Shown here: piece by piece, positions 4,797-50,342 of the stretch
Layout: the number at the start of each line of letters is the position of its first letter
Numbering within the stretch: the stretch's first letter is position 1
Origin: Micavibrio sp.
Lineage (GTDB): Bacteria > Pseudomonadota > Alphaproteobacteria > Micavibrionales > UBA9664
Direction: 5' to 3'
Length of the DNA stretch: 64,000 nucleotides
Assembly: GCA_002699085.1 (NCBI GenBank)
Contig: PAAR01000003.1
Location: forward strand, 1-64,000
Made by a program: the position numbers and the translations under genes
Notes under the pieces: generated by a model
What the model was told of the DNA's origin: nothing
The model's database searches: none
The model's input: the letters and a program-made list of their open reading frames with translations, nothing else

Positions 4797-4809
4797 TACC
4801 AAAAAAATT

Positions 4810-4861
4810 GTCATGCCTGCCCTGTGCGGGCATCCGGATCCCTGCATAAAGCGGGGATGAC
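4810..4861. repeat. Two-hairpin intergenic element, copy A
   Basis: The element starts GTCAT and ends ATGAC. It contains hairpin 1 (TGCCC with GGGCA), a central ATCCGGATC, and hairpin 2 (ATCCCTGC with GCGGGGAT, loop ATAAA). The same design recurs at 7822, 19606, 19967 (partial), 21497, 37610 and 50271. Here it sits between the convergent 3' ends of the secreted-protein gene and gpmA. Confidence 0.75.
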
Positions 4862-7821: not shown

Positions 7822-7881
7822 TGTAATCCCTGCCTAGGCAGGGATTCATAAAAAATATGGACCCCAGCTTCCGCTGGGGTT
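7822..7881. repeat. Two-hairpin element, copy B, downstream of pnp
   Basis: Hairpin 1 is a perfect palindrome (AATCCCTGCC with GGCAGGGATT, 7825-7846). Hairpin 2 is ACCCCAGC-TTCC-GCTGGGGT (7861-7880). The layout matches the other copies in this window. The second hairpin is followed by a T-rich run and doubles as the pnp terminator. Confidence 0.7.
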
Positions 7882-18473: not shown

Positions 18474-19223
18474 TTAAGCAACCTCTTTCAAGAAATCAGC
18501 ATAGCCTTTTTCTTCCAAGGCTTTGGCCAGCTCTGGCCCACCTGTTTTAATGATACGGCCATGCGCTAGAATATGCACGACATCAGGCACGATATAATCC
18601 AACAAACGCTGGTAATGGGTAATCACAAGGAATGAACGCTCTGGGCTACGTAGCGCATTCACACCATCCGCCACGACTTTAAGTGCATCAATATCCAAGC
18701 CAGAATCCGTTTCATCCAGCACGGCAAATTTAGGCTCTAGCAATGCCATTTGCAAAACTTCCATGCGCTTTTTCTCACCACCAGAAAAACCAACATTCAG
18801 CGGGCGTTTAACCATCTCATCAGAAACACCAAGCATCGCTAGCTTTTCTTTCATAAGCTTCAGAAAGCCAAGAGAATCCAATTCATCCTGTCCACGTGCT
18901 TTACGTACCGCATTAACCGCCGTTTTTAGAAATGTCGTTGTCTGCACCCCCGGAATTTCAACAGGGTATTGAAAGGCCAAGAACAACCCTAATGCGGCAC
19001 GCTCTTCTGGCTCCATCTCAATAATATTTTGGCCATCAAACAGCGCCTCACCGCCTGTAACCTCATAATTATCTCGTCCAGCCAATGTGTAAGACAATGT
19101 TGATTTTCCCGACCCGTTCGGCCCCATAATGGCGTGAACCTCACCCTTAGGCACTTCAAGGCTCAAGCCTTTCAGGATTTCTTTGCCATGCACTTCTGCG
19201 TGTAAATTATTTATTTTTATCAT
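18474..19223 (-). CDS. sufC: SufC, Fe-S assembly ATPase
   Basis: SufC is the ABC-type ATPase of the SufBC2D complex. Walker A GPNGSGKST, signature FSGGEKKRMEVLQ, Walker B FAVLDETDSGLD and the switch histidine in ITHYQ are intact. I chose ATG 19223 (MIKINNLHAEV), which matches the usual SufC start. The reading frame is open for 15 more codons upstream, overlapping the preceding gene. In most genomes sufC directly follows sufB; here about 800 bp of other sequence lies between them. Confidence 0.96.
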   Translation of the reverse strand: MIKINNLHAEVHGKEILKGLSLEVPKGEVHAIMGPNGSGKSTLSYTLAGRDNYEVTGGEALFDGQNIIEMEPEERAALGLFLAFQYPVEIPGVQTTTFLKTAVNAVRKARGQDELDSLGFLKLMKEKLAMLGVSDEMVKRPLNVGFSGGEKKRMEVLQMALLEPKFAVLDETDSGLDIDALKVVADGVNALRSPERSFLVITHYQRLLDYIVPDVVHILAHGRIIKTGGPELAKALEEKGYADFLKEVA

Positions 19224-19231
19224 TTTAGTAG

Positions 19232-19573
19232 TTATTCCATATCTTTGTAGCCATATATAAATTTCCAAATCTTTGATACTTCACCACTAGTTTCTCTTAC
19301 TTTCCAACCATCTTCTATAGCCATATTTTTTTTACTTTCGTAGTCTATTGTAAAAAAATGAGGATCTTCAGACAATACATCGACCGTACAACTAACAATT
19401 TTACTGCTTAAATCATATGAAATTTTATTTACTACAAATCGCTGACCAGATTTATCATAAATATACATTCCTATAATAGGAGCAATAGGAAGTTTTATTT
19501 GTTTTTCAGCCCAGCACCCTAATTCTATTTCCTCAAAATTTCTAAATATATGCCAGTAAAGTTTAACTTTCAT
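19232..19573 (-). CDS. Uncharacterised protein inserted between sufB and sufC
   Basis: This 113-residue protein is not recognised. It is rich in beta-type and aromatic residues (LYWHIFRNFEEIEL, GMYIYDKSGQRFVV, HFFTIDYE) and its region is visibly more AT-rich than the suf genes around it. ATG 19573 has an AGGG site about ten bases upstream. It ends 8 bases before sufC, so its ribosomes could feed sufC translation. It may have arrived with the GIY-YIG gene upstream or may simply be a local gene; both are inference. Confidence 0.55.
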   Translation of the reverse strand: MKVKLYWHIFRNFEEIELGCWAEKQIKLPIAPIIGMYIYDKSGQRFVVNKISYDLSSKIVSCTVDVLSEDPHFFTIDYESKKNMAIEDGWKVRETSGEVSKIWKFIYGYKDME

Positions 19574-19605
19574 CACCAAGCACCCTCTTGTCACAAGTAA
19601 CTTTC

Positions 19606-19664
19606 GTCATTGCACGGCTATGTCCGTGCAATCCATAGATCACACGTATAAAGCGTGTGATGAC
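19606..19664. repeat. Two-hairpin element, copy C, 3' side of the GIY-YIG gene
   Basis: GTCAT at one end and ATGAC at the other enclose hairpin 1 (ATTGCACGG with CCGTGCAAT) and hairpin 2 (ATCACACGT with GCGTGTGAT, loop ATAAA). It follows the same plan as copy A at 4810 but with different, still fully paired, stem bases. It lies 13 bases beyond the stop of the GIY-YIG gene. Confidence 0.8.
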
Positions 19665-19677
19665 GTTCCTGCAATTG

Positions 19678-19971
19678 TTATTTACAAATTTCTTCATATA
19701 AATCATTCCAATTTGGATTTAGGTCTTCAATTAAATTTAACTTCCATTGCCGGGGATAACGTCTTAGCTTCTTTTCCCAAGCAATTGCGTTTTCTGCTGT
19801 CTCACAATGTTTATACCACACAAGATTTTTCACGGCATATTTTTCCGTAAAACCTTTGGTTATATTGTTTTTATGCTCCCATATTCTTTTTTTAAGATCG
19901 GATGTCATGCCTTTATAAATTGTGCCATTCTTTTGACTAGCCAACATATAAACATAGAAATCTTTAGTCAT
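19678..19971 (-). CDS. GIY-YIG family endonuclease
   Basis: This small (97-residue) single-domain GIY-YIG protein resembles the UPF0213/YhbQ-like family. The GIY-like YVYMLASQ and YIG-like GTIYKGMTSDLKKRIWEHK blocks carry the catalytic Tyr and Arg. The catalytic glutamate is probably in AIAWEKKLRRYPRQWK. Such proteins are nucleases with mostly unknown targets. The gene is bracketed by two repeat elements (19606-19664 and 19967-20009). Its own start codon falls inside the GTCAT end of the second. This bracketed unit sits between sufB and sufC and looks like an insertion. Confidence 0.9.
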   Translation of the reverse strand: MTKDFYVYMLASQKNGTIYKGMTSDLKKRIWEHKNNITKGFTEKYAVKNLVWYKHCETAENAIAWEKKLRRYPRQWKLNLIEDLNPNWNDLYEEICK

Positions 19972-20009
19972 TTTATCCTCTGGATCACACGCATAAAGCG
20001 TGTGATGAC
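19967..20009. repeat. Two-hairpin element, partial copy D, 5' side of the GIY-YIG gene
   Basis: GTCAT at 19967-19971, then ATCC and GATC, then the complete second hairpin (ATCACACGC with GCGTGTGAT, loop ATAAA) ending ATGAC. Hairpin 1 is reduced to TTT. Hairpin 2 differs from copy C by one base in 27. It overlaps the GIY-YIG start codon and ends eight bases before the sufB stop. Confidence 0.78.
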
Positions 20010-20016
20010 GTTAAAT

Positions 20017-21486
20017 TTAACCCACCGAACCTTCTAAACTAATCGCCACGAGTTTTTGTGCCTCAACAGCAAACTCCATTGGCAAGTGCTGTAAAACCTC
20101 ACGGGCAAAACCATTAACGATGAGTGCCAATGCCTCTTCCTCGCCAATACCACGCTGGCGGCAATAAAACAGCTGATCCTCGGATACTTTCGAGGTAGTG
20201 GCTTCGTGCTCTAATTGCGCCGAATGGTTACGGCTTTCGATATACGGCACTGTGTGCGCACCGCAATTATCCCCAATCAGCAAGCTATCACATTGCGTGA
20301 AATTACGTGCGCCTTCCGCCCGAGGCATCATACGCACCAACCCACGATAGGTATTATTTGATTTACCCGCCGAGATCCCTTTTGAGATAATGCGGCTCTT
20401 TGTCCCTGGGGCCATATGGATCATTTTCGTCCCTGTATCAGCCTGTTGATGGCCATTAGTGATGGCGACAGAGTAAAACTCTCCAACGCTATCTTCACCT
20501 TTAAGAATACAGCTAGGATATTTCCATGTAATCGCCGAGCCTGTCTCGACTTGCGTCCAACTGACCTTTGAACGAGCCCCTTCACAGATCGCCCGTTTTG
20601 TCACGAAGTTATAAATACCGCCCTTACCTGTTTCAGGATCACCCGGATACCAGTTTTGCACGGTTGAATATTTAATTTCGGCATCCTCATGAGCGATCAA
20701 CTCAACCACCGCCGCATGCATTTGATTTTCATCACGCATTGGGGCTGTACAGCCTTCAAGGTAAGACACATAAGATTTTTTGTCGGCAATAATCAGTGTA
20801 CGCTCAAACTGGCCTGTATTTTCGGCGTTAATGCGGAAATAGGTAGAAAGCTCCATCGGACAACGCACACCTTCAGGGATATAAACAAACGACCCATCGG
20901 TAAACACCGCCGCATTTAAACAGGCATGTTTGTTATCGGCATAAGGCACCACAGAGCCAAGATATTTCTTAATCAGTTCAGGGTGGTTTTGAATAGCCTC
21001 TGAAATTGAACAAAAGATAACCCCTGCTTTTTCAAGCTCTGCACGAAAAGTTGTTGCCACAGACACCGAGTCAAAAACAGCATCAACGGCATATTTACCC
21101 GACCCTTCAACACCTGCCAAAAACGCTTGCTCTTTAAGCGGTATCCCTAATTTCTCATAGGTTTCCAAAATCCGTGGATCAACCTCATCCAAGCTTTTGG
21201 GCTTATCTTTTTTTGGTGCTGCATAGTAATAAGCATCTTGGTAATCTAAGGGTGTGATATTGAGCTTCGCCCAATTTGGCTCTGGCATTTTCAACCAATG
21301 TGCATAAGCCTTAAGGCGATATTCTAACATCCATTCTGGTTCATTCTTTTTGGCAGAGATCAGGCGAATGATATCTTCATTCAACCCCTTCGGAGCGAAA
21401 TCCATTTCGATATCTGTTGCGAAGCCGGCCTCATATTTACCCGCCAACTCACGTACTTTTTCTATGGTTTCATTTGTTGCTGCCAT
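20017..21486 (-). CDS. sufB: SufB, Fe-S scaffold subunit
   Basis: SufB is the main cluster-building subunit of SufBC2D. The 489-residue length, the N-terminal [18 protein letters not shown], the core [19 protein letters not shown] and [42 protein letters not shown], and the C-terminal [22 protein letters not shown] are all SufB signatures. It is the first suf gene in this operon; no iscR-type regulator precedes it. A two-hairpin repeat lies just upstream of its start. Confidence 0.97.
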
Positions 21487-21496
21487 ATTAAAATCT

Positions 21497-21565
21497 GTAT
21501 TCCCTGCGCAGGCAGGGATCTTCTTTCCTTTATTACATGAGACCCCTGCCTTCGCAGGGGATGCA
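21497..21565. repeat. Two-hairpin element, copy E, upstream of sufB
   Basis: Hairpin 1 (TCCCTGC with GCAGGGA) and hairpin 2 (CCCCTGC-CTTC-GCAGGGG) are separated by about 22 bases. The left end is GTATT and the right end GGGATGC. It lies between the sufB start and the divergent small membrane protein gene, in a position where it would be in the leader of the suf transcript or in its promoter. Confidence 0.7.
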
Positions 21566-21636
21566 CTAGGGATGTTGTGCCTGAAAACGCAGGATTTATC
21601 AAGAAAAATAGGACTTTTTGCGAAGATTTAAAGTCT

Positions 21637-37609: not shown

Positions 37610-37673
37610 TTTTCCCGTGAAAACGGGAATCTTTTTGCTATTCTTATAAGATCCCTGCCTTCGCAGGGAATAC
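37610..37673. repeat. Two-hairpin element, copy F, between tatD and metG
   Basis: Hairpin 1 is TTCCCGT-GAAA-ACGGGAA (37612-37629). Hairpin 2 is TCCCTGC-CTTC-GCAGGGA (37652-37669), with 22 bases between. It lies inside an otherwise tightly packed operon, between the metG stop and the tatD start, where it might moderate read-through. Confidence 0.72.
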
Positions 37674-37679
37674 AGTTTA

Positions 37680-50270: not shown

Positions 50271-50342
50271 GTCACCCCGTACTTGATACAGGATCCAGCT
50301 TAAAATCAAAACTTTATGGATCCCAGCTTTCGCTGGGATTAC
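50271..50342. repeat. Two-hairpin element, copy G, after phaR
   Basis: GTCACCCCG and a loose partner GGATCC form the first hairpin. After about 20 bases a perfect second hairpin follows (ATCCCAGC-TTTC-GCTGGGAT, 50320-50339) with a TTAC end. It separates the convergent ends of phaR and the large exported protein. Confidence 0.7.

Follow-up and report, generated by a model that had tools for sequence, protein, structure and literature searches.

A GIY-YIG nuclease gene bracketed by CGTC REP hairpins, a candidate two-part mobile unit

We analyzed a window of 64,000 nucleotides from Micavibrio sp. (contig PAAR01000003.1, positions 1 to 64,000), in which a gene for a 97-residue GIY-YIG nuclease is bracketed by palindromic repeats (REPs) inside the suf operon. 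The nuclease probably mobilises its cognate REPs, in a two-part system that resembles REP/RAYT with an Slx1-like GIY-YIG enzyme replacing the HUH transposase, and it is the best candidate yet for the missing partner of the CGTC REPs. The linkage of gene and repeats, the pairing of each nuclease lineage with a cognate stem and the turnover of the units are supported by the sequences compared below.

The bracketing of the gene by repeat elements between sufB and sufC, as given in the original prediction, was confirmed, and the unit was delimited from tag to tag (Table 1). In gene orientation it reads CGTC-REP, ~10 bp, gene, CGTC-REP and inverted REP-GACG, with both outer tags pointing outward. 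The downstream element (19605-19665) is a head-to-head REP dimer, CGTC...GACG, with the stems ATTGCACGG and ATCACACG. Hairpins on either side of the gene had been described as nearly identical, and the two CACACG hairpins (19636-19665 versus 19982-20010) indeed show 1 difference in 30 bases. The second element, placed earlier at 19967-20009, is present as a single REP beginning at 19982 rather than as a dimer from 19967, and it ends ~10 bp ahead of the nuclease ATG. The position of this ATG within the GTCAT end of one copy proved to be a coincidence, because only a protein starting MTK, as this one does, gives ATGAC, and relatives that share the unit layout start MEK or MNK and have no such overlap. 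A comparable layout was found at four loci of relatives (L015, L016, L018 and L020), and the simplest layout among relatives is REP, gene, inverted REP. The ORF that separates the unit from sufC had no Pfam or NCBIfam match.

Table 1. Positions of the candidate unit and its neighbors in the window.
Feature	Position	Strand	Remarks
Whole candidate mobile unit, 406 bp	19605..20010	.	REP dimer - GIY-YIG gene - REP, CGTC tag to GACG tag
GIY-YIG nuclease gene, 97 aa, Slx1/UPF0213-like	19678..19971	-	Pfam GIY-YIG; conserved catalytic residues
Upstream CGTC REP, tag outward	19982..20010	-	Gene orientation CGTCATCACACG-CTTTATG-CGTGTGATCC
Downstream REP dimer, inner half, stem ATCACACG	19636..19665	-	Direct repeat of upstream REP
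Downstream REP dimer, outer half, stem ATTGCACGG, tag outward	19605..19634	+	CGTCATTGCACGG..CCGTGCAATCC
sufB, upstream neighbor, insertion context	20017..21486	-	
sufC, insertion context	18474..19223	-	
120-aa ORF separating unit from sufC	19232-19594		

The elements match the CGTC REPs, which are defined by an unpaired CGTC (or TGTC) tag, an 8-9 bp AT-initial stem, a short loop and a CCA-like tail, and which comprise CGTC-1 to -4, including Neisseria dRS3 and Rickettsia RPE-4/RPE-6 (PMC3733652). In the window, CGTC stands at 19605-19608 and GACG at 19662-19665 and 20007-20010, and stem, loop and tail are seen in ATTGCACGG..CCGTGCAATCCA and ATCACACG..CGTGTGATCCA, the loops being slightly longer than the published 4-5 bases. 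Tag, AT-initial stem, short loop, CCA-like tail and head-to-head dimers are thus common to both. In the survey of Di Nocera et al. (2013), transposase genes were examined and no RAYT or other transposase adjoined the CGTC REPs; no dedicated enzyme was found and the route of spread was left open (PMC3733652), whereas the window elements have a cognate nuclease attached. Family and pattern searches of the genome of the window located the exact window stem only at the unit and not as many dispersed copies, while up to 56 copies were present in a relative (G101). The original view of the nuclease as mobiliser of dispersed elements therefore does not hold for the present state of this stem in its own genome, where a few dispersed copies exist of another stem type, which has a nuclease of its own. 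Elsewhere in the window, a REP dimer of the GCCCGC-CCG family lies at 4809-4861 (TGTCATGCCTGCC..GCGGGCATCCGGATCCCTGC..GCGGGGATGACA), for which the cognate nuclease in this genome would be at L001/L009, and palindromic repeats with CCCTGC/CCCAGC stems and GTAAT/GTATT tags instead of GTCAT lie at 21490-21570, 37646-37674, 7823-7880 and 50290-50342.

The 97-residue protein is encoded by an intact gene, matches Pfam GIY-YIG (E=4.9e-13) and has hallmarks of the Slx1-like/UPF0213 group, being a minimal GIY-YIG domain that stands alone and carries Tyr, Tyr, Arg and Glu as catalytic residues. Among aligned relatives Y8, Y19, G21 and R29 are invariant and E66 is nearly so. N85 is also invariant; the Slx1-like/UPF0213 group is characterised by the lack of the C-terminal Asn of the UvrC/homing lineage (UvrC/I-TevI), to which N85 may or may not be equivalent in structure. 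The structure model (pLDDT 93) has 1zg2 / UPF0213 BH0048 and Slx1-Slx4 as the nearest solved structures. No domain of an HUH tyrosine transposase (IS200/IS605 type) was found in the protein, which has only the GIY-YIG domain, and no relatives of the nuclease were found in phage records. The dN/dS values between close nuclease pairs (mostly 0.02-0.2, and 0.4 for one pair) show, at the level of sequence, a nuclease under selection.

REPs flank related nuclease genes far more often than other genes. The genome of the window holds seven GIY-YIG matches, UvrC included, and two others besides the window gene (L001 and L002) are also bracketed by inverted REPs with other stems, GTCATGCCCGC and GTCATTGCGAGC; since these stems differ from that of the window unit, they suggested that each nuclease has a stem of its own. 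Within the order, a nuclease relative was detected in 81 of 142 genomes (E<=1e-8), with up to seven per genome. Near 93 order-level nuclease genes, 91 strict REP half-elements fell within 100 bp (41 upstream, 50 downstream), compared with about 0-3 per 100-bp bin at more than 300 bp from these genes and 11 half-elements in 274 kb of dinucleotide-shuffled loci. The tags pointed outward in 33 versus 8 cases upstream and in 33 versus 17 downstream. Loci missed by the strict detector had mostly imperfect REPs by eye, which sorted by protein clade. The same flanking pattern was given by a named scan of 80 loci from Alpha-, Beta-, Gamma- and Deltaproteobacteria, Nitrospirae, Bipolaricaulota, Omnitrophota, Verrucomicrobia, Dehalococcoidia and CPR lineages, and in a phylum-wide sample the nuclease was present in 117 of 398 genomes (E<=1e-10), with REPs at 22 of the 29 loci examined.

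The survey for GIY-YIG genes near the element that had been proposed as a check thus found frequent flanking by cognate stems. By one criterion applied to all sets, strict REPs stood on both sides of 74 of 150 nuclease genes, a sample that leans to those matching the window protein best, versus 2 of 639 other genes taken from 40 stretches (mostly 20 kb) of two complete congeners (odds ratio 310, p ~1e-58). Only 1 of 30 SufB control loci was flanked on both sides, and this was the window itself. About half of the nuclease loci fail this strict test, many of them with imperfect hairpins by eye. Nuclease genes without elements, named in advance as evidence against the proposal, were found in part: 28 of the 150 loci were unlabelled, and several of these are clearly flanked by eye.

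Some individual loci are of separate interest. In Neisseria gonorrhoeae (L324, NZ_CP119142.1 1880219-1883485), an array of GTCATTCCCGC..GCGGGAATCC repeats, consistent with the dRS3 type, surrounds a GIY-YIG relative for which the record carries no annotation. On a Planktothrix agardhii plasmid (L331, NZ_LR882964.1), a relative flanked by repeats of the GTCATTCTGAG..GAATCTC type has an MmeI-type restriction enzyme gene on one side and the DISARM gene drmA on the other. Two genes, L004 (G000:C8:66429-66632) and L006 (G000:C8:57958-58173), belong to another GIY-YIG subfamily with the C-terminus GSGHAFAKKRFW / ASGRAFAKKRL; they lie directly 3' of tRNA-Asp(GTC) and tRNA-Val(TAC) among different palindromes (TTCGC..GCGAA) and may represent another pairing of repeat and nuclease, one aimed at tRNA 3' ends.

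The stem type follows the nuclease. Left and right REPs of one locus matched each other with a score of 23.6, against a permutation maximum of 12.4. Over 11,121 gene pairs with unrelated distant flanks, protein identity correlated with flank REP similarity (r=0.40), compared with at most 0.10 in 500 permutations and r=-0.03 for windows 600-720 bp away. When 12 REP types were placed on the protein tree, 32 changes were required versus a mean of 80.6 and a minimum of 74 for shuffled labels, and one clade each was marked by the window type, by the GCCCGC-CCG type and by the TTGCGAG type; the tree is a quick one of few columns with labels from patterns of our own making, and its single branches are unreliable. 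The data support the pairing of each nuclease lineage with its own stem family even where no genomic context is shared. The gene is accordingly flanked by cognate palindromes whose stem type co-varies with the enzyme, as in a REPtron.

The same association was seen between whole genomes. The window-type stem occurs in 16 of the 142 order-level genomes, 15 of them with the nuclease family, and the GCCCGC-CCG type in 38, of which 35 have the family; part of these counts comes from the flanking copies. The common GTCATTCCCGCG stem was, in the phylum sample, associated with the nuclease (>=5 copies, Fisher p=1.7e-6). REP-rich genomes with only UvrC-type GIY-YIG proteins also occur (G178 with 69 copies, G479 with 20, G194 and G306), so that elements without the nuclease, likewise named beforehand as contrary evidence, exist in part, and these can be relics. 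REPs are known to outlive their RAYT. By analogy the REPs without a nuclease resemble such survivors, a state that is also predicted if the nuclease is a passenger.

Comparison of close relatives revealed turnover. Two complete congeners, G048 and G047 (about 90% identical), differ at two sites at the level of whole units: at L048, G048 has an insert that starts at CGTC just past a stop codon and that G047 lacks, and between sufC and sufD, where G047 shows a plain junction, G048 has a 499-bp unit. Neither empty site in G047 holds a REP. The congeners also differ in whether they have several of the solo REP dimers, 68-70 bp long; dimers belonging to the L048 family match the REPs around the L048 nuclease at 91-96%, and next to many polymorphic dimers a stretch of 5-30 bp fails to align, so that insertion edges are exact only in some cases. 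On Sphingobium plasmids, the site between fnrL and a response-regulator gene was found in three states: occupied by REP-GIY-REP (MM7A, TYG46 and MM15), reduced to a single palindrome, CGTCACCCCGGGTCAAGCCCGGGGTGACG in TYG64 and a close variant in TYG74, and element-free (TYG72 and TYG65). The scar fits gene loss between two short CCCCGGG repeats and could have arisen with no need of the nuclease. No clear target-site duplications were seen at the G047/G048 and Sphingobium sites. These alignments show turnover of units with ends at the tags, the direction (gain or loss) not always being fixed by them. Sites with and without the unit, as anticipated, were therefore obtained from relatives; for the window unit there was no clean empty site in the genus- and family-level sample of only two genomes, the congener G001 having other genes between sufB and sufC. 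No near-identical plasmids were found for a Rhizobium unit, and a Shinella site without the unit was too diverged for its edges to be read. In Legionella sp. PATHC038, seven near-identical GIY-YIG genes (L107, L114, L115, L116, L120, L134 and L138) lie downstream of a transposase gene. They were rejected as an active multi-copy unit and excluded as evidence of mobility, since the copies ride in an apparent IS5-like DDE element (called by eye from the transposase end), and the nuclease there looks like a passenger of the insertion sequence.

The location of the unit raises the question of whether the nuclease is a conserved, vertically inherited SUF accessory gene that happened to gather REPs. 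A relative lies within 1.1 kb downstream of sufB in 16 of the 131 order-level genomes with sufB, and Azospirillum lipoferum, one of the species in which CGTC REPs were described (PMC3733652), has the arrangement sufB-[REP dimer]-GIY-[REP dimer]-sufC on plasmid AZO_p3. Against this, most relatives lie elsewhere, the congener G001 has no nuclease at sufB-sufC, in genus g35 the sufB-sufC site varies between occupied, degenerate and empty states, and nuclease relationships do not follow genus boundaries. We consider vertical inheritance in the operon very improbable and rejected it as a sole explanation. The adjacency of sufB and sufC assumed in the original prediction does not apply in this order, in which the two genes are often not adjacent and the variable gap holds varied small ORFs. 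The sufB-adjacent nucleases come from several lineages with several REP types, and to judge from these sequences the gap looks like a hotspot, or the target preference of one clade, rather than a case of simple inheritance.

Of the rival explanations, the strongest still standing is a stem-specific nuclease of the passenger or homing kind, that is, a free-standing homing-type GIY-YIG gene that inserts in or beside REPs as safe sites while the REPs are moved otherwise. GIY-YIG is a classic homing nuclease fold (PMC1564403), the layout REP-gene-inverted REP is that of a REP dimer with a gene in its center, and REPs persist in genomes without the nuclease. However, the two whole-unit empty sites contain no REP, the 2013 survey offers no RAYT or other transposase beside CGTC REPs (PMC3733652), and across phyla, among unrelated neighbors, the stem type goes with the nuclease clade. 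A passenger fits this last match only if it is strictly stem-specific, in which case it is already a REP nuclease; overall we regard this explanation as unlikely. Very improbable, in our judgment, is a regulatory or structural association in which the REPs act as hairpins that stabilise the transcript or as attenuators that hold a risky nuclease in check, with no mobility. REPs are often transcribed and near gene ends (PMC3733652), but ordinary genes have them on both sides in just the 2 control cases above, congeners differ in the presence of units and of solo dimers, and cognate stems recur at unrelated loci in different phyla.

Mobilisation of cognate REPs by the nuclease is thus the reading that we favor. 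The originally proposed likeness to REP/RAYT, with a GIY-YIG enzyme in place, survived the survey, cognate-stem and empty-site comparisons, while nuclease loci without REPs and REPs without the nuclease each occur in part. The autonomous form would be a ~97-codon Slx1-like GIY-YIG gene between CGTC REP hairpins with tags outward, and solo REPs and 68-70-bp REP dimers would be non-autonomous forms, each nuclease lineage working on its own stem family. Slx1 cuts DNA at branch points, and for this reason the foot of a hairpin or cruciform is proposed as the target. The REPs may extrude such structures in single-stranded or supercoiled DNA; we infer that the nuclease would recognise its cognate stem as a branched structure, in the manner of Slx1, and cut at the unpaired CGTC foot. 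We know of no strand-transfer chemistry in a hydrolytic nuclease, so the host would have to provide the joining step: its replication and repair functions may join the REP-bounded piece, whether freed or copied, at intergenic sites.

A broader proposal is more tentative, and we hold it as possible rather than probable: the CGTC REPs overall (including Neisseria dRS3 and the common GTCATTCCCGC, GTCATTGCGAG and GTCATTCTGAG types) may be non-autonomous members of an unrecognised class of minimal elements, whose sole protein is a hydrolytic GIY-YIG nuclease and in which hairpin-bounded DNA moves with no transposase, recombinase or reverse transcriptase. We found no prior link of GIY-YIG proteins to CGTC REPs in the literature within our scope, which excluded preprints and most subscription journals. 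CGTC REPs are widespread, and a cognate enzyme for each stem family would make their spread a simple question of cleavage and excision. If such a cognate enzyme is at work, systems of the REP kind evolved at least two times around nucleases that are unrelated, and a role is found for the many small proteins whose only annotation is 'GIY-YIG nuclease family protein'; if active, the ~400 bp unit would be among the smallest autonomous mobile elements.

Among known systems, the REP/RAYT (TnpA-REP) REPtrons/REPINs are the closest in organization. Both have short palindromes with an unpaired tetranucleotide tag, mostly in inverted dimers, which flank a single nuclease-type gene; both have several stem families, each with a cognate enzyme, and solo dimers dispersed in the same genome. 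They differ in the tag (GTAG there, CGTC here), in the enzyme (an HUH tyrosine transposase there, a 97-aa GIY-YIG nuclease here) and in that the GIY-YIG genes are multi-copy and patchy. The unit would work like REP/RAYT, and it is not a member, because the HUH transposase is absent. Prokaryotic Slx1-like/UPF0213 proteins share the minimal stand-alone GIY-YIG domain, and in the portion of the source consulted this group is described as ancestral and mainly vertical, with repeats or mobility not mentioned there (PMC1564403). Free-standing GIY-YIG homing endonucleases and Penelope elements likewise use a GIY-YIG nuclease as a mobility enzyme, whereas the window unit has no intron, added DNA-binding modules or reverse transcriptase, and its ends are REP hairpins.
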